Assembly: GCA_020060385.1 (NCBI GenBank)
Contig: JAGVAH010000017.1
Coordinates: 1 to 61,230 of the forward strand
Direction: 5' to 3'
DNA length: 61,230 nucleotides
DNA from: Syntrophobacterales bacterium
GTDB taxonomy: Bacteria > Desulfobacterota > Desulfobaccia > Desulfobaccales > 0-14-0-80-60-11
The notes beneath the pieces were generated by a model. That model ran no database searches. It was not told where the DNA came from and saw only the letters and a program-made list of their open reading frames with translations. Below are positions 39,706 through 53,555 of the stretch, in pieces (the stretch's first letter is position 1; each line of letters opens with the position of its first letter). Position numbers and translations under genes: made by a program.

Positions 39706-41832
39706 TCAAATGAAGTCGATATTATATATTGAAACATATTCGTCAACCTGTATTTTTCCATAAATTTGAGAGAGCACGCCTTTCAATTCTTCGACTCTAC
39801 CAAAGCCGTCTCTTTGAGCATCAAAATCATCTAAATCCCGGAATTTCTTGACTGAGAATTTCGATATCTTAACCTTTCCTGCCTCTTTGGGTGAAGAATT
39901 TGATGAAAAATCTCTAGTTGGAAATAATGGCATGATCTTGTTAACTGGGTAATCTATACCATCTTTTCGATATCTAACTGTCGTAGCTTTATAACCTCTT
40001 CTCACCCATTCAATAAATTCCTCATATAAGAGGAATTTTTGTCGGTGAAATAATTGTATGTCTGGAAAATTTACTTTTAGCAACTCTTTTAACGCCATTT
40101 CGTCTAATATATCACTTTTAGAAAAATCGACTTGAAAAAAAGGGGATGATAAGTTCATTAAAATATCCTCATTAATTTTATCTATTCTTTTCTCAATCAT
40201 TAATGACCCTGCGGCAAGATACTTTATATCAAGCCTAATGAATGTTTTAAGTGCATCGTCCAAAGTTTCAACGATAGGCTCACCAGGGCCATTAAAAGAT
40301 GTATTTAGTATAAGAGGGATCCCAGTTCTACAAAAGAATTTATAAATTAATTCATAGAAAAGTGGGTTAAATTCCTTCCGCACGGTTTGGATTCTAGAAG
40401 TATCATCGTGATGAAGAACTGATAGGATTTTATCCTTATTGTTCGCTTTGACTTTAAAAGCTGCAGCCATGTAAGGACTTTCTACGCATTGAAAATAATC
40501 ATTCGCGAATTCAGCAAGAACACTTGGAGCAAAAGGCATAAAGCCTTCCCTTCCTTTGAGCCTATTCATTTTTTGCTTATTGGACAAATCACGAGGATCA
40601 GCCAAAATGCTTCTATTTCCAAGAGCCCGAGGTCCATATTCACTTTTACCTTGGAACCATGCAACTATTTCTCGGTTTTCTATTAATTTTGCCACTACTC
40701 CTGTGATATCAGAAGCTTCGTGTATTAGAAATCTATCTCGAAACGTTAGCTGTTCAATTCTATCTTTAGTGATTTCTTCATCTCCTCCTAAATAGGGATT
40801 AAAAATCGTGTTTCTCTTCCAGCTTCTTTGGTTCATTAGATAACCATGTATAGCATTTCCCAAACACTGTCCGTGATCCCCAGAGGCGGGGTGAACATAA
40901 ACATTCTTTGCCTTTGTATGGAAGTGTAATTTACCTATTGCCGAACAATTATAGGCAACTCCGCCCGATAAACAAACATTGGTTATACCTGTTTCATCTA
41001 TCAAATAATTTACTTTTTTGCATATCGCATTTTCAGTTTCCCTTTGAATCCATGCGGCTAAGTCTTTATGGCCCTGAAGGATTTCCCCTTTCGGCTTCCT
41101 CTCTAATATGTCCGCAACTTCGTATTTTCTTAATAATTCTTTCACCATAATTATAGGGTTCGCGGGGTTATTCTTCATGTGTGATAACATTTGGCAACGT
41201 TCATCAAAATAATATATCTCCTTATCTTTAAATCTTTCCCAGTTCCCATAAGCAGAAAGAGCCATAGTTCTATTTGCATATCTCGAAGATTGCCACCCCA
41301 AATAATAAGTAAATGCTCTGTATATTTCTCCAATCCCAGCCGTTTCAGGCTCTTCAAAATCTCTTCCATGTAATAAAACATTGTCATCTTCCGCTATGAA
41401 ATAAGATTGTTGTTCTCTATCCAATCGCCACCATTCAGGACCATCTTGATCATCAATAACTTCCCCTCCAGCATCCATTACCAAAATCAAAGCTTCATTG
41501 AAGCAAGATGTCTGGTAAACACTTAAGGCATGAGAGAGGTGATGATTACAGGCATCGGTTCTTACTTCTCCCAGACTGTCGAAATGAAGAGAGTTGACAA
41601 TATTTTCACAGCAGCTTGAATAAATTAGAAGATCAATATCTTTTTCAGTTAAGTTAAGCTTTTTCATAGCATACGATAAAGATTCCTCATAACCACCAGC
41701 CCTTTTTTTCCGGTTAATCCGTTCTTCAGCAATAGCCATTCTAACTTCACCATCAATTACAACACATACTCCACCATCGTACAATGGTTTGCCAAGCTTC
41801 GTACTTGGTAAGTTAAGACCAACTATGATCAT
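39706..41832 (-). CDS. NodU/CmcH-family carbamoyltransferase with C-terminal extension
   Basis: A 708-residue protein. The N-terminal part has the Kae1-like ATPase fold with the metal-binding HHLSHA motif at residues 97-102, LVMDAGGE, and LSGGVAYNCSAIGK near 290. The C-terminal carbamoyl-transfer part has GKSEYGPRALGNRSILADPR (about 390-410) and LNTSFNGPGEP near 530. Members make carbamoyl-adenylate from carbamoyl phosphate and ATP and transfer it to a hydroxyl. They usually have about 560-600 residues; here about 130 extra residues follow, with no recognised domain. The ATG overlaps the upstream stop (TAATG). Substrate unknown: a hydroxylated base, a nucleotide or a small molecule. Low GC unlike the flanks. 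Confidence 0.92.
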   Translation of the reverse strand: MIIVGLNLPSTKLGKPLYDGGVCVVIDGEVRMAIAEERINRKKRAGGYEESLSYAMKKLNLTEKDIDLLIYSSCCENIVNSLHFDSLGEVRTDACNHHLSHALSVYQTSCFNEALILVMDAGGEVIDDQDGPEWWRLDREQQSYFIAEDDNVLLHGRDFEEPETAGIGEIYRAFTYYLGWQSSRYANRTMALSAYGNWERFKDKEIYYFDERCQMLSHMKNNPANPIIMVKELLRKYEVADILERKPKGEILQGHKDLAAWIQRETENAICKKVNYLIDETGITNVCLSGGVAYNCSAIGKLHFHTKAKNVYVHPASGDHGQCLGNAIHGYLMNQRSWKRNTIFNPYLGGDEEITKDRIEQLTFRDRFLIHEASDITGVVAKLIENREIVAWFQGKSEYGPRALGNRSILADPRDLSNKQKMNRLKGREGFMPFAPSVLAEFANDYFQCVESPYMAAAFKVKANNKDKILSVLHHDDTSRIQTVRKEFNPLFYELIYKFFCRTGIPLILNTSFNGPGEPIVETLDDALKTFIRLDIKYLAAGSLMIEKRIDKINEDILMNLSSPFFQVDFSKSDILDEMALKELLKVNFPDIQLFHRQKFLLYEEFIEWVRRGYKATTVRYRKDGIDYPVNKIMPLFPTRDFSSNSSPKEAGKVKISKFSVKKFRDLDDFDAQRDGFGRVEELKGVLSQIYGKIQVDEYVSIYNIDFI

Positions 41833-42935
41833 TAATCTTGCCTCAAAAATACTTTTATTTCCTTAAGAAGTTCTATTATAATGACTGTAATGCCTATCAG
41901 TGATAAATCTTTTAGAAAAGTTCCAAGGAAACCAAGCGAAGTTTGGGGATGAAAGTGAATGAAGAAATAGGCAAATGTAAAAATACCGCATAATGCAGAT
42001 TTAATTATTAATTTTTTCAACTGCCTATTTATCCTAATAGGAATATAAAGCTTTGGTTCTATGTATTGTTGATTTTCTGTCTTTGGAGTGTGTATGATGT
42101 CGATAAAACTATCATGTCCACCACTTTTTGTCCTAACCCGAAATATAAATGTTAGTACATCATATTTTCCAACAGCACGAGCTTTATTCCTCAATATTTC
42201 AATATACTTGTTATCTGATTTTACTTCAATGTCTCTAGGCTCCGATTTCTCTTGACCACCTTTAGGCACGTGCTGAAGGACCATCAGTTTATAGTCATCA
42301 CCTGCTTTTACGTATAAGTAACCATTTTTAAAGTAAGATTCCCCGCTATCTAATTTCATAGGTTCAGCACCGATCAATTTAATAAATTCAACACCCTCGT
42401 AGAATTTTATATTTCTGGTTAATGTGACAATATTCCCCCATTGCTCATATTCTCTATCCATGGGGTCATTTGTACCATAATGCTGATTTACTATTTCTGG
42501 CTTAAATCCACTCAATAATACAAGAGGCTTCATGTCCTTGCCAGGTTCATTAGAAATGAATTTGCTGCCATGAAATTCTGCAAACTCTTTATTAAAATTC
42601 GTCAGTTGAGTCGATCTCCAATTCTCGTCTGAACTAAAGTCTACAAATTCTCCTAATTCGTATTCGAAGTAGTAAATTATTCCGATGCGTCTTGCAAGTG
42701 ATAGTGTAAAATACCTGATAGGATAAAACTTTGCTTCAGCTTTATCTCGAAAAACAATTAAACCTTTTTTGCCTATTAAAATAGAAATATTATTTTTAAT
42801 TTCATCATGCACCCACTCTTCATCAAAACGAAAACGATATCTAAAACCCTTTGGATATGCCATAATCTTTGTTAATTCATAGCCATAAGGGTTTATAGCA
42901 TTAGGGATTATTATTATAGATTGGTCATCTCTCAT
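41832..42935 (-). CDS. Unknown protein with two C-terminal membrane helices
   Basis: A 367-residue protein with a strong ribosome site (AGGAGG). Residues about 1-120 are strand-rich (YPKGFRYRFRFDEEWV, GLIVFRDKAEAKFYPIRYFT, GIIYYFEYELGEFVDF), a similar strand-rich stretch follows to about 300, and then two membrane segments at about 309-328 and 333-357 and a short basic tail. I do not recognise the soluble domain. It lies in the middle of a coupled four-gene unit with an HD hydrolase, a methyltransferase and a carbamoyltransferase. A soluble sensor on a small membrane anchor would fit a membrane-acting effector in a defence system; that is inference. Confidence 0.75.
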   Translation of the reverse strand: MRDDQSIIIIPNAINPYGYELTKIMAYPKGFRYRFRFDEEWVHDEIKNNISILIGKKGLIVFRDKAEAKFYPIRYFTLSLARRIGIIYYFEYELGEFVDFSSDENWRSTQLTNFNKEFAEFHGSKFISNEPGKDMKPLVLLSGFKPEIVNQHYGTNDPMDREYEQWGNIVTLTRNIKFYEGVEFIKLIGAEPMKLDSGESYFKNGYLYVKAGDDYKLMVLQHVPKGGQEKSEPRDIEVKSDNKYIEILRNKARAVGKYDVLTFIFRVRTKSGGHDSFIDIIHTPKTENQQYIEPKLYIPIRINRQLKKLIIKSALCGIFTFAYFFIHFHPQTSLGFLGTFLKDLSLIGITVIIIELLKEIKVFLRQD

Positions 42936-42947
42936 AAATCGGTCCTC

Positions 42948-44147
42948 CTATTTTCGGAAAATAAGGATTCCTTCATTATGAACTCCGCCGCCCTCTGGGT
43001 GAATAAAAAATTTCTTACTTATATTTCGATCAAAAGATTCAATAAATTCAAGATGCAGATTTTCTGTGATATAAGAAGCTATATTCTCTCTAAGTTGTGT
43101 AAAATATTTTTTTGGTTCTCCCAGAACTAAACATAAATACCCTGATTCCTTCAATACTTTGTTCATTTCAGCAAGGGCATTTTGCATGTCATTGAAATAA
43201 TCATTAAGCCTAGTCCTTTGTTTTCTCCGCCAACGTGCGCCAATCTCCTTTCTTTTTAGATTTTCCATTTCATTAAAATCTTTTACAAGAAAATCATACC
43301 ATAGATAAGCAAGCCTGAACCCTGTTGTATAATCAGTGACATTTAAATAAGGTGGAGAAGTAACGATCAGATCAACTTTGTTGTTGATATATTTACTGAG
43401 GTATCTAGCATCATTATTTATGACACTAAACTGCAAATCTGCCGAAGCAATACGTGAGGTTTTATATTCTTTTAGAAACTTATTTAATTTATGATATAAC
43501 ATTTTTAATGCATTCTTATCTATTTTGTCATTTTTTGGGATTACGTTATCGGCGTAGTAACCATATGGTTTTTTGCTCTGGTAACCAGATGAAGGCATTA
43601 GAATAGAAATAAAGAATACTCTGCAGATATCTCTCGTTAGTCCCTCTAGTAATTCTTCAATAAAGTAAAAAATATGTCCGAGCATTTTGAGTGTGTTGGA
43701 GTGATACCATTTTTGATTTATTTCTCTATTTGGAATATTCTCCCCCTTCAATTCAAGAAATAAACCTGCTTCAAGCTTATCCCAGTGAGATGACAGCTGG
43801 AAAATATAGTCTTTTAGTTCTTCAATTTTCTTTGTATCGACATGTTCTCCAATTACAATTTTACCTTTAGTATTAGATATGAAACAACCAACGGGGCTTA
43901 AATCGATGCCTATGGCATTCCTGTTCTGTTTAAGGGCTTCGATGAGTGTTGTACCCGAACCACAAAAAGGGTCAAAAACAGTTTCACCAGGCTTGCTCAA
44001 TGCTTGAATTAAATATGCAGGAATTATTGGAATGAACCTAGATGGGTACCAACAAAAATTATGAATATACATGACCGAATCTTCATCGGAGAAGTCCCAG
44101 TCTAATATTTTAAAGTGAGAAATATCTTTCTTCTTAGTTATATTCAT
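42948..44147 (-). CDS. DNA methyltransferase with TSPPY motif (N4-cytosine/N6-adenine type)
   Basis: A 399-residue protein. Motif I is at residues about 59-66 (FDPFCGSGTTLIEA) followed by GIDLSPVG; the catalytic motif IV is at about 263-267 (VTSPPYLNVTDYT), which modifies an exocyclic amino group. The order with motif I first and TSPPY second differs from the classical beta class and resembles the Trm11-like/COG1041 group, so an RNA substrate cannot be excluded. No restriction endonuclease gene is adjacent in this unit. The ATG is coupled to the HD gene stop (TGATG). AT-rich. Confidence 0.85.
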   Translation of the reverse strand: MNITKKKDISHFKILDWDFSDEDSVMYIHNFCWYPSRFIPIIPAYLIQALSKPGETVFDPFCGSGTTLIEALKQNRNAIGIDLSPVGCFISNTKGKIVIGEHVDTKKIEELKDYIFQLSSHWDKLEAGLFLELKGENIPNREINQKWYHSNTLKMLGHIFYFIEELLEGLTRDICRVFFISILMPSSGYQSKKPYGYYADNVIPKNDKIDKNALKMLYHKLNKFLKEYKTSRIASADLQFSVINNDARYLSKYINNKVDLIVTSPPYLNVTDYTTGFRLAYLWYDFLVKDFNEMENLKRKEIGARWRRKQRTRLNDYFNDMQNALAEMNKVLKESGYLCLVLGEPKKYFTQLRENIASYITENLHLEFIESFDRNISKKFFIHPEGGGVHNEGILIFRK

Positions 44148-45460
44148 CAGAACAAGAATTCTTTCTGTGCACTTGCATAGTCTGCAAAGTCAACTCTTTC
44201 AAAGCCCTTATAACCCTGCATACCAAGAATTTCTATTGTCTTGTCCGTAAGAATGGATATTGCTTTATTGGAAAGTGGCAGTCTTCCTAAAATCGCAATA
44301 AGAATATATTGTGTATCGTCTCCGATAACCTCTCTTCGAATCACTCCTTTATCCTCTATGTAAATAACTACTTGTCTTTCTGTTTTTCTGTTATCCGTCG
44401 TCAAATGATAGTAAATATTGCCCATTATTTCCTTTGATAGCTTCTGAGATGATACAAGATCATTAGGCACTTCATGCGTTAAGGTTTCCAATATTTTGGT
44501 GTTAATGATGTCACCTTTATAATTGAAGTTTTTAGATCTTATAATCGAATATGTTATAGGTATTTCGTGTAATAGCAATTTTCGTGCGATGCTATTCAAT
44601 TCTGGTACATCTTTCCTTTCATAAAAATACCAAAGAAGCTGCTCGTCACTGAAATGGAAAAGATTACCTAACCCTTCTTTTTCAATGTGCTTTGTATATT
44701 TAGAAATAAGCTCAAATAACAAGTACTCAAAAGCCATATATTCTGGGTTATAAATAAATTTGTGATATATATCGGCTCTCAAATCGTGCCAGACATTAAC
44801 ATACTTCAAAAAATCTTTATCGATGATGAAATTATCATAATCTGCGCTAACTCTTAAATTCTGTGCGAGCATTACAGGAACTTCAACATGATTAGAGATG
44901 ATCCCTAAATATAATCCCATTCTGAAAACATTATCGATATTATCTAAATCAATCCCCTTATTATTTATTACGAAAAGTTCCCTACCTTCTATAAAATGCT
45001 GAATTCTGTCAAAATCCAATTTATACTTTTTATTAAAATTGTATCTTCCAAGACCTGGCTGTTCAATAAAGATTGGTTTTATATCCAACGATGACAATTT
45101 CTCTTTATCCACTAGCCACTTGGTCTTTTTTTCATGATTATAAGGCGTATAGCGATCAATTGCCCATTCGATTGAATGGCCAAAGGAACCGCAATTTATA
45201 TCATGATACAGTGCTGATACTAACAAATCATTTTTGTACTGTGATAGGCCGTTCGCCGCAGAGAATAGTTGTGTCAAATATGCTAATCCAAGTGTATGCT
45301 CTAATCTGGTGATAGATGTTAAAGGTAGCATTCCTATAGATTTAAAATTCATCATCCCCACATACTTGAGCCTTTTTAACTCTGGACACTTACTAACCAG
45401 ATCAAAAACCAGATCCTCCATTTCTATTTTTCCATACAAGGAGTCGTAATAAATTATCAT
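44147..45460 (-). CDS. HD-domain phosphohydrolase, SAMHD1/dNTPase-like
   Basis: A 437-residue protein from the ATG at 45460 (GGTGG upstream; a TTG at 45487 is possible). The HD signature is clear and in dNTPase order: first His in ITRLEHTLGLAYLT (about residue 55), HD in ALYHDINCGSFGHS (about 86-87), and the His after GSFG. The distal Asp is probably in the region around 190-210 (DNVFRMGLYLGIIS). Relatives such as SAMHD1, Dgt and COG1078 proteins cleave deoxynucleotides or cyclic nucleotides. First gene of the AT-rich four-gene unit. Depletion or modification of nucleotides is a plausible action; the substrate is unknown. Confidence 0.85.
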   Translation of the reverse strand: MIIYYDSLYGKIEMEDLVFDLVSKCPELKRLKYVGMMNFKSIGMLPLTSITRLEHTLGLAYLTQLFSAANGLSQYKNDLLVSALYHDINCGSFGHSIEWAIDRYTPYNHEKKTKWLVDKEKLSSLDIKPIFIEQPGLGRYNFNKKYKLDFDRIQHFIEGRELFVINNKGIDLDNIDNVFRMGLYLGIISNHVEVPVMLAQNLRVSADYDNFIIDKDFLKYVNVWHDLRADIYHKFIYNPEYMAFEYLLFELISKYTKHIEKEGLGNLFHFSDEQLLWYFYERKDVPELNSIARKLLLHEIPITYSIIRSKNFNYKGDIINTKILETLTHEVPNDLVSSQKLSKEIMGNIYYHLTTDNRKTERQVVIYIEDKGVIRREVIGDDTQYILIAILGRLPLSNKAISILTDKTIEILGMQGYKGFERVDFADYASAQKEFLF

Positions 45461-45563
45461 TTTCTTATTCCACCCATGGTTTTGCAAACCTATCTAAAAT
45501 CCAGCGCAATTACCTCACACTCCTGCAACGTTAGCCGTTGTCTCATCTTTTTCGACGACTATT

Positions 45564-46193
45564 TCAGGTGTTCCGTAAGATCAATTTATTTTGATCACGG
45601 GCTGATTGAATGACGCTTCGGTTGGCGGTAAAAACCCTTAAGCCGGGTATCGTCGCAAAATCGCCATCGTCGGTAATTATTTGAGAAATGCCGGCCTTGA
45701 TAAAGTTCTCTACCATAAAAAGGTCACTGGGATCGGCGAGATACGGCGTAATATCCTGGCAGGCCTTGTCAGTAATGGGTTCATCCAGCAAAATTTCAAC
45801 AAAACCAGCAAGAGATTTCGCCATGGCCCAGGCGTTTTGAATTTCCGTCACTACGCTTTGCCTTTCGGCCGGTTCGTTATGGCGAAATTCTTTTGGATCA
45901 ATTGGGCCTTTTGATGAGCGGAAAATATCCAGTTCGTTTTTCTCAATTAAATTGCCCAATTCGCTAAAACAAAGGCCGCAGGTAAAGAGCTTTGCTTTCG
46001 CCGCCCTCACCCTTTTAATGTAGGCCGGGTATTCATTAACCTGATATGGCCTGGGGCCTTTATATGCCATGCGGCATCGGGTGTAAGTTAGCCAATACCA
46101 CACGTTTGTATCTACGAAAAAGGCATCTCCCGGCCCGGGCGCGTCGGAGCGCAGGTCGACCACCTCTGCTTTTACGCCATAGCTTACGGCCAT
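45564..46193 (-). CDS. PIN-domain nuclease
   Basis: A 209-residue protein. PIN residues are present: Asp28 in AFFVDTNVWYWL, Glu in CFSELGNLIE, and the late acid pair in DPSDLFMVENFIKAG and ITDDGDFATIPGLRVFTAN. The ATG overlaps the stop of the STAS-like gene (TGATG). No antitoxin of VapB type is next to it; instead it follows a STAS-like protein and a GHKL ATPase, so those may hold it inactive. Likely an RNase effector in a three-gene module. GC content fits the phage and not the AT-rich unit that follows. Confidence 0.85.
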   Translation of the reverse strand: MAVSYGVKAEVVDLRSDAPGPGDAFFVDTNVWYWLTYTRCRMAYKGPRPYQVNEYPAYIKRVRAAKAKLFTCGLCFSELGNLIEKNELDIFRSSKGPIDPKEFRHNEPAERQSVVTEIQNAWAMAKSLAGFVEILLDEPITDKACQDITPYLADPSDLFMVENFIKAGISQIITDDGDFATIPGLRVFTANRSVIQSARDQNKLILRNT

Positions 46194-46540
46194 CAGGCGT
46201 TGGCCGCCTGTTCATCCAAGACTCTATTCACGACCCGGCGATATTTCGGATCGGAATAGTACTTTTTGGAATTCTCGATGACCCGCTTGAGGACGGACCT
46301 CCCCACCGGGTTCAGATTGTCAACCTTGATAAGGCGGTTCAGATCGTCCCCGGGAAGGTCCCTCAAAAGTTGGCCGAAGGCGGCGTTAAAAAACGGGGAT
46401 GCAAAGACGCCGACCCTTTCGAAATCGATTTCCACGGGACGCCCCGCTTTCAATTCCGGCAGGATCAGGTCATGGACCTTTTGCCCGTCATCCAGGGTGA
46501 TGCAATCCTCCCCAATCAAGGCGTGGACATCGATTTTCAT
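46193..46540 (-). CDS. STAS-like DUF4325 protein
   Basis: A 115-residue protein with GGAGG before the ATG at 46540. The pattern VEIDFERVGVFASPFFNAAFG is that of STAS-like DUF4325 proteins, related to anti-anti-sigma factors; the usual phosphorylatable Ser/Thr position after FAS is followed by PFFN. The C-terminal part is a basic helix. Partnered with a GHKL ATPase just upstream, as SpoIIAA is with SpoIIAB. In this module the output is probably the PIN nuclease encoded next. Confidence 0.8.
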   Translation of the reverse strand: MKIDVHALIGEDCITLDDGQKVHDLILPELKAGRPVEIDFERVGVFASPFFNAAFGQLLRDLPGDDLNRLIKVDNLNPVGRSVLKRVIENSKKYYSDPKYRRVVNRVLDEQAANA

Positions 46541-46553
46541 GGCGGGCCTCCTC

Positions 46554-47438
46554 TTAAAATAGCTTATCTGTTTGTTCTTCCGAAACCAAGTGGTAATACG
46601 ACTCATCGCAGTGGAACGTAATGTTGACGACCGTGCCCTCAAAAAAGGTTGAACGGTCGAGAAACCTTTCACGGCCCTCTTTTATCTGGCCGTAGCCTTC
46701 ATGACTATAGATTTCCAGTTCGCCTTGATTGACCTTCACAAATTCCCTCAAGAGGTCCAAACCCAACCCCCGGCCCATGCCATTGGGCTTGGTGGTGTTT
46801 CCCGGCCTGAAAGCCCACCTGAGGGCGGCGGCGGCGCTGACGGTCTCTTTTTTCGTAAACATCCTGACATTGGAGGGAATTCCCACCCCGAAATCCAGTA
46901 CGCAGAGCTTCAGCAGGTGAAGTTGGGGATAGTGTTGGCCGCAACAGAACACCCCCAAGGGCGAAGACCCGTGCTCAAAGGCGTTTTCATAAATTTCCCA
47001 GACCCTGCCGACGATGGCGTCGCGCAAGGTGGGGCTCAGGTTTACCCAGCCACGGCCTAACCATTTTGCCTTCAAATAACTCGTAATGCTGTCTTTCCTT
47101 TTCTCTTGAAACTCCTGGTAGGGGATGGAATTCCCGGACCAAGGGCCTCTGCCTGCTGAGAAACAACCCATGAAGCCGTTTTGCCTCAGGTTAGTGTGAA
47201 TGTCGTCCTGCAAGGTATTCCAGTCGAACGTGGCCTTCCCTCCCCGGTATTCGACTAGGCGGGCCAGGCCCCCCAGGAACGCCACCGCGTTTTGCCTTAA
47301 GAATCGGCACTGGGAGAAATCAAATTCAACCTCAAGATAATCATCGTTCACCAGGTTCCACAAGCGGAACAGCCGGTCGAAATCGGGAGGGTCGTCGTTT
47401 ATCGTGGGAACTGCCAGGACTCTTCGCACAAGGGTCAT
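46554..47438 (-). CDS. GHKL-type ATPase with an N-terminal STAS-like part
   Basis: About 294 residues (start 47438 or 47459; a GGGGAG lies about 12 bases before the first). Residues about 35-95 resemble a STAS fold (YLEVEFDFSQCRFLRQNAVA). The C-terminal half is a HATPase_c domain: N box EIYENAFEHG, G1 box VLDFGVGIPS, and G2 box GMGRGLGLDLL. Such a kinase-like ATPase is expected to control the STAS-like protein by phosphorylation or binding. No HisKA domain is seen, so it is not a sensor histidine kinase. First gene of the ATPase/STAS/PIN trio. Confidence 0.8.
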   Translation of the reverse strand: MTLVRRVLAVPTINDDPPDFDRLFRLWNLVNDDYLEVEFDFSQCRFLRQNAVAFLGGLARLVEYRGGKATFDWNTLQDDIHTNLRQNGFMGCFSAGRGPWSGNSIPYQEFQEKRKDSITSYLKAKWLGRGWVNLSPTLRDAIVGRVWEIYENAFEHGSSPLGVFCCGQHYPQLHLLKLCVLDFGVGIPSNVRMFTKKETVSAAAALRWAFRPGNTTKPNGMGRGLGLDLLREFVKVNQGELEIYSHEGYGQIKEGRERFLDRSTFFEGTVVNITFHCDESYYHLVSEEQTDKLF

Positions 47439-47485
47439 TAGGCTAAAAGCTCTCCCCATAAAGCTTGATCCAGGAGGGCAAAAGG

Positions 47486-48316
47486 TTATTTCCCATATTT
47501 ATAAGCCATATCTAATTTCCTATGGACGAAAGAAATCATTGTCAGAATATCCAAGGCATCTATCTCTTCCATGGGCCATTCGATTTTTGGCTCATGGGCA
47601 ACCGGGTTTCGAACCATGCCGAATAAGCCAACCAGCATATTCACGAAACCTCGCTGCTCTCCTCGCAATGTTTCAGTATCAAGTGGATTTATTGCCAATA
47701 ATGGAGAGTCCGTTTGGCCGAGGCCAAAAGCGTCTTTGACTAAGTTGGCGCCATCTGACGTCAAGTTTGAAAGTGATCGGATTCGGGACGCAATACTTTT
47801 CATAGCCTCGAGTACTGCATGGAAATTGTTATTGGCAATGATCTCCGCTTTGCAAAAACGGATCACCTCTGCGTGAGCGTTGCGACGGCGGAGTTGTTCT
47901 TGCATCCGGTTGGCACGTTCAAGAGCCTCATCGAGGGTATTCGCCTTCTCCGTCCTGCGTATTTTCCCATCCTCGCTAAGCATAAAGCCATTCAGGGCCA
48001 GGACAGCGTTGAGTTTATCTCTTCGGGACCGGAATATATCCGGTGATTCGGTGTAAGAAGCAGGGTTCATGGTCTCATTGATAAGCACAATTACATGGTT
48101 GCCTACGCCATGACGATTTTGAAATTCCGCCAAGGCATTATATAAGCGCTTCCACTTAGTGTTTGAAGGATCACAGTCTGGTATTTTACACTGTTGGAGC
48201 TTATGTCCTATTTCTGAACCTGTCAGGCCCTCATTCGTATCGCCCAATATCTTGGCAATCGCTTCGAGATGTGGCCCTGAAAAAGGCGGAATTATCTGTT
48301 TTGCCTTAATAGACAT
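47486..48316 (-). CDS. TIGR02391/Hypoth_Ymh-family protein
   Basis: A 276-residue protein directly after hsdS (the stop and ATG abut, with a GGGGGAG ribosome site). The C-terminal half shows the family pattern: RIRSLSNLTSDGANLVKDAF, LRGEQRGFVNMLVGLFGMVRNP followed by VAHEP (quoted in parts), and ALDILTMISFVHRKLD. The RNPxAH motif recalls HEPN-type proteins, which include many RNases and abortive-infection effectors. This family is often found in type I restriction loci. The N-terminal half (residues 1-140) is of unknown fold. Confidence 0.8.
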   Translation of the reverse strand: MSIKAKQIIPPFSGPHLEAIAKILGDTNEGLTGSEIGHKLQQCKIPDCDPSNTKWKRLYNALAEFQNRHGVGNHVIVLINETMNPASYTESPDIFRSRRDKLNAVLALNGFMLSEDGKIRRTEKANTLDEALERANRMQEQLRRRNAHAEVIRFCKAEIIANNNFHAVLEAMKSIASRIRSLSNLTSDGANLVKDAFGLGQTDSPLLAINPLDTETLRGEQRGFVNMLVGLFGMVRNPVAHEPKIEWPMEEIDALDILTMISFVHRKLDMAYKYGK

Positions 48317-49558
48317 CTACAACTCCCCCCGGAAGGCTTTGGACAGGAGGGCGGGGGTGAAGGTGGCCAGTTCCAAATCGGTTTCGGCTTGCAGGCGTTT
48401 CAATTCATCGGCTTTGGCCTGGATGCTGTCCAGGTATTCAACGATGCGGCGCTGCTCCTTGACGGGGACAGCAGGGACAGGGATATTCTCCACGTGGCCC
48501 TGGTTGATTTTTTTCATGGACCCGCTGGTCCCGCGGGCCCGGGTCATCAGGTAATTCCTTGCCTCCCAGGTTTGCAGCCAGTAATGGATAAACCTGGTCT
48601 CGGCCTTCTCTGGATCGGCCGTCATCTTCATGATGAGGTCGGGGCAAATGCAAGGTGCCGGGGTTCCATCGTAAATTGCCGCATGTCCGACCAGTTCCCT
48701 GGTATTGCTGCGGGTAATGAGAAGCTCTCCGGGCTTCAGCCAATAATGGGCCAACGGACGAGTCGGTGAAGCCGTCCATTTAACCTTTGTTCCGTCATAT
48801 TTGAAGCCGGTAACTGCCGAAAGGGTAAGAACAGGGACCCCTTTGGCGGCAAAACTATCTCCCGGCGGGGACCAACCATTTCTCGGCCTACCCAAGAGGT
48901 ACTGTTTCAAAGGGGAAAATTTTTCGGTTAATCCCGTGAGAAGCCTATCGATCCGTTCCTGCATGAACGAACCCGCTTCAGCGGCCGCTTCACGGCGCAA
49001 TCGGCGAGTTTCCTCAACGCGGCGGGTCAATTCCTCGATCCGGGTCACCACCCGCTTTTGTTCAGCCAAGGGGGGAATAGGAATTTCAATTTCTTTTAAC
49101 TTGTTTTTGTTAAACGCAGATTGCCCAACAAATTCCACACAATTAGTAGCAAAATAACCTGAAAGCCAAAGTTCCCTAAGACAAACATACAGCCATTCCC
49201 TGTTTAAGACATTTGGGTTGGCTCGTAACCGAGTGAGATGGTTGCTGAAGGTGCAGGGTTCTTGCCATCCGGTAAAAATACACGACTTTCCTACAAGTTC
49301 AGTGCTGTTGGTATTATTGAAGATTATATCCCCAGGCTCCAACCATTTACCGGCGCTGTTGGCCTTTTCTTTGGGAATTCTCCGCACCAAGGTCATATCT
49401 AAGAAGCCATTTTTTGAAACGTTATTCATGCGTAAATGCGGAATCCCGTCGCTGACATCTTTCTTCCCGCAGGCAAAGCCCGGTTGAATATCTTTAATGA
49501 TTCTATTATCTCCAAGTGCTCCCCACCGCCACCCTTCGGGCAACTCATACCGTTCCAC
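48317..49558 (-). CDS. hsdS: Type I restriction system specificity subunit
   Basis: A 413-residue protein with two target recognition domains of equal plan: PEGWRWGALGD with KKDVSDGIPHLRMNNVSKNG and, in the second half, FAAKGVPVLTLSAVTGFKYD. Each is followed by the conserved helical spacer (IPIPPLAEQKRVVTRIEEL; IPVPAVPVKEQRRIVEYLDS). It starts with GTG inside the hsdM end (14-base overlap). It determines the two halves of the split DNA target. The length is normal and both domains are intact. Confidence 0.95.
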   Translation of the reverse strand: MERYELPEGWRWGALGDNRIIKDIQPGFACGKKDVSDGIPHLRMNNVSKNGFLDMTLVRRIPKEKANSAGKWLEPGDIIFNNTNSTELVGKSCIFTGWQEPCTFSNHLTRLRANPNVLNREWLYVCLRELWLSGYFATNCVEFVGQSAFNKNKLKEIEIPIPPLAEQKRVVTRIEELTRRVEETRRLRREAAAEAGSFMQERIDRLLTGLTEKFSPLKQYLLGRPRNGWSPPGDSFAAKGVPVLTLSAVTGFKYDGTKVKWTASPTRPLAHYWLKPGELLITRSNTRELVGHAAIYDGTPAPCICPDLIMKMTADPEKAETRFIHYWLQTWEARNYLMTRARGTSGSMKKINQGHVENIPVPAVPVKEQRRIVEYLDSIQAKADELKRLQAETDLELATFTPALLSKAFRGEL

Positions 49559-51083
49559 TATTGTTGCCCTCCAGCAAAAGCTCCCGCATCTCCCGAATAA
49601 GGTCGAAAATCTTTTCCTCCTTCAAGGCAACGGATTCCAGGATTTCCTCCGGCTCGGAGTGCTCCACTCTCTCCGGGGTCACCAATCCAAGGGCAGACAA
49701 CGACAGGTTGTAGTTCTTTTCCCGGATTAAATCAGCAGGCACCAACCAGGCTCGTCCTTCCTCAATCTCCCGGCTCGGCCATTTGGCCAGGAGATCAGGG
49801 AAATCATTCCTGAACTGGGGCCCGAACTTCCGGGCTTTCTTGAGGGAAGAGCCATCACCCTCCAGGCGGTAGAACCAGACCTGGTCGGTGGCCCTGCCGG
49901 TGTTCTGAAAGACGAAAAAGCAAGTGGGGTTGGGAGTGTAGGGCTCGAACATGCCCTTGGGAAGCATGACCACCGCCTGCAGGTCGAATTCCGCCAGCAG
50001 GCGGCGCTTGACCTCCAGGTGGCTGCCGGTGTCGCCGAAGAGAATACCATTGGGAAAGATGATGCCGCAACGCCCGCCGGGCCTCAGGGACCGCAAGGCA
50101 TAGGCCAGGAAGAGTACGTATTTATCCCCCTTTTCCACCCGCAGGGAGCGTTTGGCGTCGCCCCGGTCACCCGAGAAAGGGGGATTGGTAAGGATCACAT
50201 CGAACTTTACTTCATCCCATCTATCTTCACTGCCGCAGATGGAATCCCGGCAAACCAGGGGGGATTGGTCGAACTGGTGCAACACGGCGTTCATGGCGGC
50301 CATCCGTAAGATGTCTTGGTCGCCGTCGAATCCATGAAGGGCTCCCTTTTGCAGGAACTCCCATTGTTCCCGGCTGAGGCGGTCACCGATGCCGATGTGC
50401 ACCGGCGTGCCGTAGGGGCTCAATTTTTCCCGGATGAAATCCGGGCTGGTGTTGGCCAAAAGAACATGGTCATAAGCGGCGATGAGAAAGCCCCCGGTGC
50501 CCACTGCCGGGTCACACACGGTTTCCCCGATCCTGGGGTCAACCATCTCGGTGATCACCCGGATGAGATGGCGGGGGGTGCGAAACTGGGCCGCCTTCTT
50601 CTGGCTTCCCAGGTCGTTGGCCAGAAGTTCAAAGAGGTCCCCTTTGACGTCGGCGTCCTCGGCCATGAAGGAAATTGGAGCAATGACGTCCACCGCCTTG
50701 CGCAGGGTAGCCCCATCGGGAATCACTATGGAGGCGTTTTGAAAGATGGCCCGGGCTCCCTGGGAGAGCAGCGGGTGCAGGGCCAGCTTGGGCAGGGTGT
50801 CCCGGAGGGTGCGCAGCATGCGCTCATTATCTGGGTCAGAGGTGAGGACGCTCCAACGCAGGGGTTCGAAGTCAATCTCTTGCCCGTCTGCCTTAAACTT
50901 GCGGAATAGGCTGCGGTGATTGCCATTGCCATTTTGTTGGCGGTCGGCGTCCATCTCCTCCAGCATCTTGAGGAAAAGGAGGTAGGAAACCTGGGTCACA
51001 TAAGTGATGGGGTTGCTGACATTGGCCTCCCACATCACCTTGCACAGGCGCTTGAGGGTATTCTGTAATTCTCCTGAATCCAT
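49545..51083 (-). CDS. hsdM: Type I restriction system methyltransferase subunit
   Basis: A 512-residue N6-adenine methyltransferase. Helical N-terminal domain (LKRLCKVMWEANVSNPITYV), then motif I DPAVGTGGFLIAAYDHV near residue 200 and catalytic motif IV as ILTNPPFSGDRG near 305; a late LPKGMFEPYTPNPTCFFVF segment is typical of the family. It works with HsdS to protect host DNA, and with HsdR in restriction. AAAGGA precedes the ATG; hsdR ends nine bases upstream. Confidence 0.95.
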   Translation of the reverse strand: MDSGELQNTLKRLCKVMWEANVSNPITYVTQVSYLLFLKMLEEMDADRQQNGNGNHRSLFRKFKADGQEIDFEPLRWSVLTSDPDNERMLRTLRDTLPKLALHPLLSQGARAIFQNASIVIPDGATLRKAVDVIAPISFMAEDADVKGDLFELLANDLGSQKKAAQFRTPRHLIRVITEMVDPRIGETVCDPAVGTGGFLIAAYDHVLLANTSPDFIREKLSPYGTPVHIGIGDRLSREQWEFLQKGALHGFDGDQDILRMAAMNAVLHQFDQSPLVCRDSICGSEDRWDEVKFDVILTNPPFSGDRGDAKRSLRVEKGDKYVLFLAYALRSLRPGGRCGIIFPNGILFGDTGSHLEVKRRLLAEFDLQAVVMLPKGMFEPYTPNPTCFFVFQNTGRATDQVWFYRLEGDGSSLKKARKFGPQFRNDFPDLLAKWPSREIEEGRAWLVPADLIREKNYNLSLSALGLVTPERVEHSEPEEILESVALKEEKIFDLIREMRELLLEGNNSGTV

Positions 51084-51092
51084 GGGTTCCTT

Positions 51093-53426
51093 TTAAGCGG
51101 CCAGCAGGGAGTTTAGTTCTTCCACGATTTTGGCAAGACCCTCCTTACCGAATAGCCTTTCCATGCGGGCCCGTCCACCCCATAGGGAGAAGGGCGGCTG
51201 GCTAAACAGGCGCATCTCTATCTTATCACCGGCCCGTACCCTGGCCTCCAGGAGCCGCAGCATTTGGGCCTGCTCGGGTACGAGGCCATCGGAGTGCTCA
51301 ACCACCCAGGTGTTGAAGACTTTCCCTATGCGCTCCTCTCGGGTGGGGAACCGATAAATCCCCAGGGCGGCGCGGATGAAGTCGGAAAGTGAGCCGGTGG
51401 GCTGTTCGAAGGCCCGGCGCAGGTTCTTCTCGGTGAAATAGAATTCCGGGGAATCCAGCTTCCGGCCCAGGGCCTCCCATTCCGCTTCGGTCAACTCCTC
51501 GCCGGCAAATATTTTCTGGACCGTGGGGTCGGTGCGATGCAACTCGATAACCTGGGCGGCCCATTTGTCCCGGTAGGTCTTGCGGTCCATGGCCAGTCCC
51601 TCCGGGCCGACAATGATGGTCTCCCGCCGCCGGAATTCATCCTCCAGTGACCCTTCCGGAATTTGCAGGAATCCGGCCGGCTGCGGCGGTTTAGGCGGGG
51701 GCGGCGGCGCCGGTTCGGGACCGGGCTCTGGTTCGCCGGGCTGCCTGGGACCGGGGCGTGGCCCCACCACCCTGGGGCGGTGGTATTCCTCGCCAGGATC
51801 GTTGAAGACGGTGGAGTTGCCCACGAAATCATAAATCAGGAACTCGGTCTTGCCGATGCGGGGGCAGAGCCGGCTGCCGCGGCCCCGCATCTGGGCATAT
51901 TTGATGGCTGATTTGGTGGGGCGCAACATCACCAGGTTCTCCACTTCCTTGTGGTCGTAACCGGTGTCCAGCATGTCCACGGACACTGCCACCACGGGCA
52001 GAGGGTCGTACTTGAATTGGTCTATGGCGGGTTTGGGATTGCCGTTGTTCGTATAACAGGTAATCTTTTTGGCATAGTCCTGCCTCACCTGGCCGGGGGC
52101 GCGGTTGCACTGCCGGGCGATGCGCAGGCAGGCGTCATCCGATAAGTATTTGTTGAAGAGGCGTTCCAGGATCACCGCCTGTTTTTCCGAAACTGCGAAG
52201 ACAATGGTTTTCCGGGGCCGCTCCTGAGAGCGTTCTTCCTCCACGCGATAATATTCATCCAGGATGAGTTTTAGCCGGTCTTCCGATTCTGCGGTGCGCC
52301 CCCAGTCGGCGAAAACTATTTCCTCATCTTCCCAGACTGCTCCCTCAAAGGTCAGCCTGGTCTCGGCCAAATAAATCTTGTAGTTGGCGAGAAAACCATC
52401 CCGGATAGCGTCTTGAATGGCGTAAGAGAAGGTCGGCTTACCCTCTTGTTTGGCGCTGTCCCAGCAGTCGAAAAACAGGTAGGTGCTTTTTACCAACTGC
52501 CGTTCATGTTCGCTGACCCATCGCAGTTCTCCGGGATTGGGAGTTGCGGTCAGGCCGATGTGCACCGCGTCGAAGTGGGCCAACGTGGCCCTATGGGTAT
52601 TGTAAATGGAGCGGTGACATTCATCGGTGACCACCAAGTCGAAGTAGCCATGGCCAAAGCCCCCCGGCCCTAACTGCCCGGCAACGGTATCCAATGTTCC
52701 CACCACGACCTGGCCTTCCAGGCTGCGCTTTCCTCCGTAGAGCAAGGTGGAGGGCCAATCCCGCAGGTAATCGTCGAAGGTTTCCTTGGCCTGCTTGGCG
52801 AGCTCGATCCGATCAGCCAGGAAGAGGACCCGGGAGATGATCGCAGCCTGGAACCAACGTTTCATTAGCATTGCGATGGTCAGGGTCTTTCCCGTGCCCG
52901 TGGCCATCTCAAAGAGCATGCGCCGCCGCCCGGCGATCAAGGCGGAGTCTGCCTTTTGCAGGCAGGTGGCCTGATAAGGGCGGGTCTTTATTTCTTCACC
53001 TTTAAACCCAAACTTTTCTGGGATGGGGATGCTTTTTAAGGAATCCTCCAGGGAACCTTTACGGTGAATCTTTAGGTTGGAGCGGCGTTCCAAGTCGGCC
53101 TGGGTAGGAATTCCTAAAATAGGCCGGGCGTCGCCGTCAGTGTAATCCCAAAAATAATGGTCCTGGCCGTTGCTCAGGATGACGAAAGGTGCTGAAAGAG
53201 ATTTGGCGTAAGCCTTGGCTTGCCCTTTGGCGCTGTATGGATCGATGGAAAAGCGCTTAGCTTCGATCACGGCCAAAGGTTGGCTGCGGGAATTTTTGAG
53301 TAGGTAATCTGCCCTGCCGTCTGATGCGGGTTCTTCAGTGGATACCTGAGCCTTATTTACGATGTCCCAACCAGCATCCTTGAGAAGCTGGTCGATGACA
53401 ATTCTGGCATCGGCTTCAGTTACCAT
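51093..53426 (-). CDS. hsdR: Type I restriction endonuclease subunit (EcoEI-like HsdR)
   Basis: A 777-residue protein from the ATG at 53426 (GTGGGG upstream; the frame is open to 53480). The nuclease part is N-terminal with PD-(D/E)xK residues Asp40, Glu55 and Lys57 (DGRADY and AVIEAKR). The SF2 motor has MATGTGKTLTIAML, TDECHRS (DECH box), and motif VI in YAQMRGRGSRLC. A Pro-rich linker at about residue 590-620 leads to the EcoEI_R_C type C-terminal domain. First gene of the cargo block; hsdM follows after nine bases. Confidence 0.95.
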   Translation of the reverse strand: MVTEADARIVIDQLLKDAGWDIVNKAQVSTEEPASDGRADYLLKNSRSQPLAVIEAKRFSIDPYSAKGQAKAYAKSLSAPFVILSNGQDHYFWDYTDGDARPILGIPTQADLERRSNLKIHRKGSLEDSLKSIPIPEKFGFKGEEIKTRPYQATCLQKADSALIAGRRRMLFEMATGTGKTLTIAMLMKRWFQAAIISRVLFLADRIELAKQAKETFDDYLRDWPSTLLYGGKRSLEGQVVVGTLDTVAGQLGPGGFGHGYFDLVVTDECHRSIYNTHRATLAHFDAVHIGLTATPNPGELRWVSEHERQLVKSTYLFFDCWDSAKQEGKPTFSYAIQDAIRDGFLANYKIYLAETRLTFEGAVWEDEEIVFADWGRTAESEDRLKLILDEYYRVEEERSQERPRKTIVFAVSEKQAVILERLFNKYLSDDACLRIARQCNRAPGQVRQDYAKKITCYTNNGNPKPAIDQFKYDPLPVVAVSVDMLDTGYDHKEVENLVMLRPTKSAIKYAQMRGRGSRLCPRIGKTEFLIYDFVGNSTVFNDPGEEYHRPRVVGPRPGPRQPGEPEPGPEPAPPPPPKPPQPAGFLQIPEGSLEDEFRRRETIIVGPEGLAMDRKTYRDKWAAQVIELHRTDPTVQKIFAGEELTEAEWEALGRKLDSPEFYFTEKNLRRAFEQPTGSLSDFIRAALGIYRFPTREERIGKVFNTWVVEHSDGLVPEQAQMLRLLEARVRAGDKIEMRLFSQPPFSLWGGRARMERLFGKEGLAKIVEELNSLLAA

Positions 53427-53555
53427 TTTGGCCCCACGGATTATCCCTATCCGAATTATGCCACAAGTGAAAAGGTTCATAAATCTTTTTCATCGAAGAA
53501 TTACATTGAGACATGCCGGCAGTGGCATCCTGATTTGGCCTTTAAATGCCTTACC

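Follow-up and report, generated by a model that had tools for sequence, protein, structure and literature searches.

The anti-phage system VapKSC consists of a PIN toxin (VapC), its antitoxin (VapS) and a GHKL kinase (VapK), as described by Chambers and colleagues (Chambers et al., EMBO J 2026, PMC13373217; structure PDB 9Z7O). Their report counts 289 vapKSC instances and describes VapS-VapC as a 2:2 complex, in which VapS leaves the active-site Mg of VapC in place, unlike VapB. Escherichia VapC is toxic and the D28A substitution abolishes its toxicity. Escherichia VapS alone neutralises the toxin, while tail-less or S48E VapS does not, and S48E abolishes VapC binding. Protection against phage Bas42, of about 2 logs, needs VapK F54, VapS S48 and VapC D28, F54 being a conserved aromatic residue and putative ssDNA contact. 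Direct activation by ssDNA was demonstrated with the related CapK; VapK itself was insoluble, so that neither its kinase activity nor its activation by ssDNA was observed directly, and RNA cleavage by VapC is inferred in that report too. Among the CapKS relatives, an HTH domain is present in CapK and a winged HTH in CapS. CapK/CapS often lie directly downstream of restriction systems (88 of 443 CapKS), and 36% of VapKSC have another immune gene within 10 kb (PMC13373217).

Here we place a prophage-borne copy of this very recently described system. It lies in a 61,230-nucleotide stretch of DNA from a Syntrophobacterales bacterium (contig JAGVAH010000017.1), analysed at its full length and called the window below. 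Judged by sequence homology, the trio in the window is a member of VapKSC as already published in 2026, so that the idea of a PIN toxin controlled by a partner switch, put forward in the preliminary description of this DNA, is not novel. Homology, gene order, conserved residues, domain folds and evolutionary pattern could be observed directly for this copy.

The three genes are tightly packed on the minus strand in the order ATPase, STAS, PIN. The vapK-like kinase gene (46554..47459) encodes 301 aa, with an N-terminal STAS domain (about 9-101) and a GHKL kinase domain (about 109-287). It is followed after 13 nt by the vapS-like antitoxin gene (46193..46540; 115 aa, STAS-like DUF4325 and C-terminal tail), whose stop overlaps by 1 nt (a gap of -1 nt) the start of the vapC-like PIN nuclease toxin gene (45564..46193; 209 aa). 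This packing, the overlap of the PIN ATG with the STAS stop and an ATPase lacking HisKA had all been described from the letters, and they are borne out here, the last by a Pfam domain scan. The ATPase gene itself also stood, but not its end at 47438, which is an internal ATG at Met8 of a frame reaching 47459; both 47459 and 47438 are possible starts.

The window VapS matches DUF4325 in Pfam (E=4.8e-19) and, in a PDB sequence search, the Escherichia VapS of 9Z7O (chain A, E=2.3e-22), ungapped over residues 2-113. Its S48 aligns without gaps to the solved VapS and is identical in residue and number to Escherichia S48; given this and the S/T conservation at this position, the codon 46397..46399 (minus strand) would specify the phosphorylation site. 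A C-terminal tail appears from the alignment to be present (residues 94-115, aligned to the solved VapS as far as 113). Because the Pfam match of the PIN protein is weak (E=0.03, under its cut-off), its identity was taken from PDB 9Z7O, where it matches the Escherichia VapC (chain C) at E=6.4e-39. VapC residues D28, N30, E78, D154, D157, D176 and D178 are kept in 85 of 85 relatives; the codon of D28, a PIN active-site residue and the one changed in Escherichia D28A, is at 46110..46112 (minus strand). Neither PADLOC nor NCBIfam gave a system name for any of the three proteins. No close VapC was found in named phages and plasmids, nor any match to the Pseudomonas operon in a nucleotide search of E. 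coli genomes. The neighbouring genes, read and domain-scanned, include no VapB-like protein. The earlier remark that no such antitoxin is near is therefore literally right, but the STAS gene itself is the antitoxin.

As the HATPase_c score of the ATPase is just below the Pfam cut-off (E=1.9e-5), its identity was taken from the fold of an AlphaFold2 model (pLDDT 90.3). In a PDB fold search, residues 109-287 resemble SpoIIAB (Z=14.3) and residues 9-101 RsbV (Z=11.3); most rows of this search span the kinase domain alone, and the absence of other families from them is uninformative. The model begins at the STAS domain, with no domain ahead of residue 9 and no HTH. N-box residues E155 and N159 and glycines G191, G231, G233 and G246 are kept in 57 of 57 relatives, and F53 is Phe in 52 of these and Trp in two; it is equated with Escherichia F54 by motif only. 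A PADLOC match to DrmA was set aside, being confined to the GHKL region.

Our comparative survey was made before the VapKSC publication was found, and it agrees with it. A PIN-family scan of 84,980 genomes gave 144 relatives, from which 80 loci were kept; in three of these the contig ends too early for the upstream genes to be judged, which leaves 77 assessable. In every one of the 77, vapS is the gene directly upstream of vapC, with an overlap or a spacing of at most 8 nt; an intact vapK is present in 50, and the other 27 have a broken one or none. With the PIN as query the loss of PIN is not measurable in these counts, the comparison of STAS with ATPase being unaffected. The kinase label (intact or lost) changes at least 16 times on the STAS+PIN tree, a run that counted locus L015 as kinase-broken, so that the true number may be one or two lower; L015 has one open kinase frame over q3-294 (tblastn) and is counted intact here. 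Some kinase breaks are in draft genomes and could be assembly errors. Several of the losses involve large deletions, however, and after others the STAS-PIN pair stands beside unrelated genes. No full-length PIN of the VapC family was found without STAS in the survey, the STAS-less copies being fragments or an unrelated protein. One candidate for a STAS-less VapC (L175) was rejected as an unrelated weak PIN beside an AbrB-like gene. A cyanobacterial copy among transposase-like sequence (L159) has lost the STAS gene and retains an ATPase remnant; its PIN lacks the first 60 residues, including D28.

With the ATPase as query, relatives close to that of the window (E<1e-60) are followed by STAS and PIN wherever the contig lets the genes be seen; it is only among distant ATPase/DUF4325 pairs (E about 1e-35 or weaker) that different genes, or no genes, adjoin. 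Two patterns that would speak against the trio as a unit, a PIN usually occurring without the other two genes and an ATPase/STAS pair found everywhere with other outputs only, are thus ruled out, by the counts above and by these neighbourhoods, respectively. The order ATPase-STAS-PIN is repeated in unrelated bacteria and phages well above chance, and a deeper branch with a short PIN also keeps the trio (L091, L092, L097, L098, L111, L138). Distances among the K, S and C proteins co-vary (r 0.82-0.88, n=52).

Some outlying arrangements were seen as well. Streptococcus phage Javan172 (L091, 4001-5793) carries a full short-PIN trio, in which the PIN is annotated only as a small hypothetical protein. 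In L099 (1453-3475), genes for an MNT nucleotidyltransferase and a HEPN protein begin 65 bp past a distant ATPase/DUF4325 pair, a hint of another toxin pair beside a kinase-STAS switch; a search for further distant pairs of this type found none. An orphan VapS 90% identical to that of the window stands directly after a methyltransferase gene on another viral contig, with neither VapK nor VapC (L008, 4950-5348). Two solitary VapS-like STAS genes of Bacillota, with no kinase or PIN adjoining (L130, L131), are possible antitoxin remnants.

The kinase-less loci deserve separate consideration. All 55 loci first scored kinase-intact, and L015 as well, have Ser or Thr at VapS position 48. Of the 27 kinase-less loci, 24 have Ser there, the orthologous L078 and L084 have Ala and L057 has Pro, a covariation with the kinase that comes from two lineages only. 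The kinase-less pairs L018/L031 and L078/L084 have dN/dS of 0.11-0.39, which falls within that of intact loci, and a search for a VapK elsewhere in these four genomes found none. Judged from these substitution ratios, kinase-less vapSC pairs persist under purifying selection, and they could serve as natural controls for what phosphorylation does.

As to its setting, the left part of the window carries chromosomal-type genes, e.g. an AcrB-family pump and a histidine kinase, after which come genes for portal, head protease, major head, tail, exonuclease, sliding clamp and ParB-like proteins. The trio is surrounded by these phage genes and therefore lies in a prophage. In three related phages (L180, L183, L184) exonuclease and portal are about 3.6-4 kb apart, with an SMC-like ATPase gene between them; in the window this interval contains about 14 kb of cargo, namely hsdR, hsdM, hsdS, a TIGR02391 gene, the trio and a cluster of HD, methyltransferase, membrane and carbamoyltransferase genes. 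The type I restriction system upstream and the HD/methyltransferase cluster downstream are as previously claimed. The restriction genes are all on the minus strand: hsdR, for the restriction subunit (51093..53480; helicase/nuclease sequence, matching hsdR of related operons), hsdM, for the methyltransferase (49545..51083; PADLOC MTase_I, E=4.7e-110), and hsdS, for the specificity subunit (48317..49558; Methylase_S, E=2e-19). Between hsdS and vapK is a TIGR02391/Hypoth_Ymh gene (47486..48316, minus strand; Pfam E=9.9e-37), which PADLOC calls PD-Lambda-3_B (E=4.9e-102); the scanned neighbours include no further recognisable PD-Lambda-3 component. Locus L076 has a TIGR02391 gene in the same arrangement. 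Downstream of the trio, 39706-45487 encodes an HD-domain protein, a DNA methyltransferase, a protein that matches no family and a fusion of a carbamoyltransferase with an ASCH domain; this cluster could be a further defence or modification unit.

Across the survey, 74 loci have at least 2 kb of upstream sequence, and in 22 of them it includes co-directional type I hsd genes, hsdS overlapping or nearly touching vapK in about ten of these 22. Downstream hsd genes were seen only in two near-identical Nostoc loci, on the opposite strand. On the strength of this gene arrangement, a functional link between vapKSC and the upstream restriction operon is plausible.

We consider with high confidence that the window trio is a prophage-carried vapKSC operon in which VapS blocks VapC and VapK frees it via Ser48 phosphorylation. 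At rest, VapS would bind the PIN nuclease and keep it blocked. DNA damage or phage attack would activate VapK, the trigger probably being ssDNA bound between its STAS and GHKL domains. Active VapK would then phosphorylate VapS on Ser48, and phosphorylated VapS would release VapC, which would cut RNA and stop growth. For this copy, we infer that VapS is phosphorylated, that ssDNA is the trigger, that RNA is the target and that the link to restriction is functional.

The survey bears directly on who restrains the toxin. SpoIIAB and RsbW hold sigma factors inactive, and the kinase domain of VapK is most like SpoIIAB; by analogy, VapK itself could hold VapC inactive, with VapS as the antagonist that frees it. 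Such an arrangement seems extremely improbable to us, since an intact VapC is kept without an intact VapK in 27 of 77 loci and without VapS in none. A kinase so commonly lost, when VapS never is, is unlikely to be the inhibitor, as its loss would unleash the toxin; this distribution is what one would predict for a VapC restrained by VapS and only released by VapK. The neutralisation of VapC by Escherichia VapS alone tells in the same direction (PMC13373217). The partner-switch-controlled toxin of the preliminary description thus survives as VapKSC, but not a toxin held by the ATPase, which would be the arrangement of sigma-factor control: the role of antitoxin falls to the STAS protein and that of activator to the ATPase. 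We have just as little faith in a transcriptional switch of the CapKS kind, where the STAS protein would be a DNA-binding repressor of its neighbours and the PIN gene one of its targets. CapK and CapS are indeed relatives, frequently found directly after restriction systems, but the HTH of CapK and the winged HTH of CapS (PMC13373217) have no counterpart here: the VapK model starts at the STAS domain, and the solved VapS accounts for all 115 aa of VapS. The gene that follows vapS is, moreover, the PIN gene in every case, overlapping it or at most 8 nt away.

Alternatively, the locus could act simply as an addiction module for retention of the prophage, with VapK a dispensable modulator and the anti-phage activity incidental. 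The prophage location fits such a role, as does the persistence of kinase-less vapSC with dN/dS values like those of intact loci in genomes where no VapK was found. Against it, the three residues needed for the published protection include VapK F54 alongside VapS S48 and VapC D28 (PMC13373217); VapK is moreover intact in 50 of 77 loci and in the window, and co-directional type I restriction genes precede 22 of 74. Overall, we judge the addiction module unlikely.

The preferred reading, antitoxin VapS released by kinase VapK, gains independent evolutionary support from an antitoxin never lost before the toxin, a kinase lost often, and a phosphorylation site free to change only once the kinase has gone. 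We also propose, tentatively, that hsdRMS-vapKSC may form a recurrent two-tier unit: restriction would act first, and its DNA ends or ssDNA, or those of a surviving phage, would trigger the kinase and then the toxin. In a second branch, vapSC without a kinase, where two or more lineages have lost the phosphorylation site, would be a plain toxin-antitoxin pair. The recurrent 3' position after type I restriction operons makes the suggested coordination of restriction and growth arrest a testable design. Relative to the published text, the prophage cargo, the type I hsdRMS upstream in 22 of 74 loci and kinase-less vapSC under purifying selection are additions.

The window trio thus shares with the described VapKSC the same three genes in the same order, VapS S48 and its C-terminal tail, VapC D28 and the STAS + GHKL architecture of VapK, and differs in being prophage-borne, after type I restriction genes and a TIGR02391 gene. 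With CapK and CapS it has in common a GHKL kinase with a STAS domain, a STAS substrate with a conserved Ser and the association with restriction, but its kinase lacks the HTH and its STAS protein the winged HTH, and the output of VapKSC is a bound toxin, whereas that of CapKS is transcription. SpoIIAB/SpoIIAA and RsbW/RsbV offer the kinase fold and a STAS substrate with a conserved hydroxyl residue; in contrast, the window kinase has an extra N-terminal STAS domain, no sigma factor is involved, and the output would be inhibited by the STAS protein and relieved by the kinase. Finally, as in VapBC, a PIN nuclease with catalytic acid residues is encoded beside its antitoxin, which here is a STAS protein instead of VapB.
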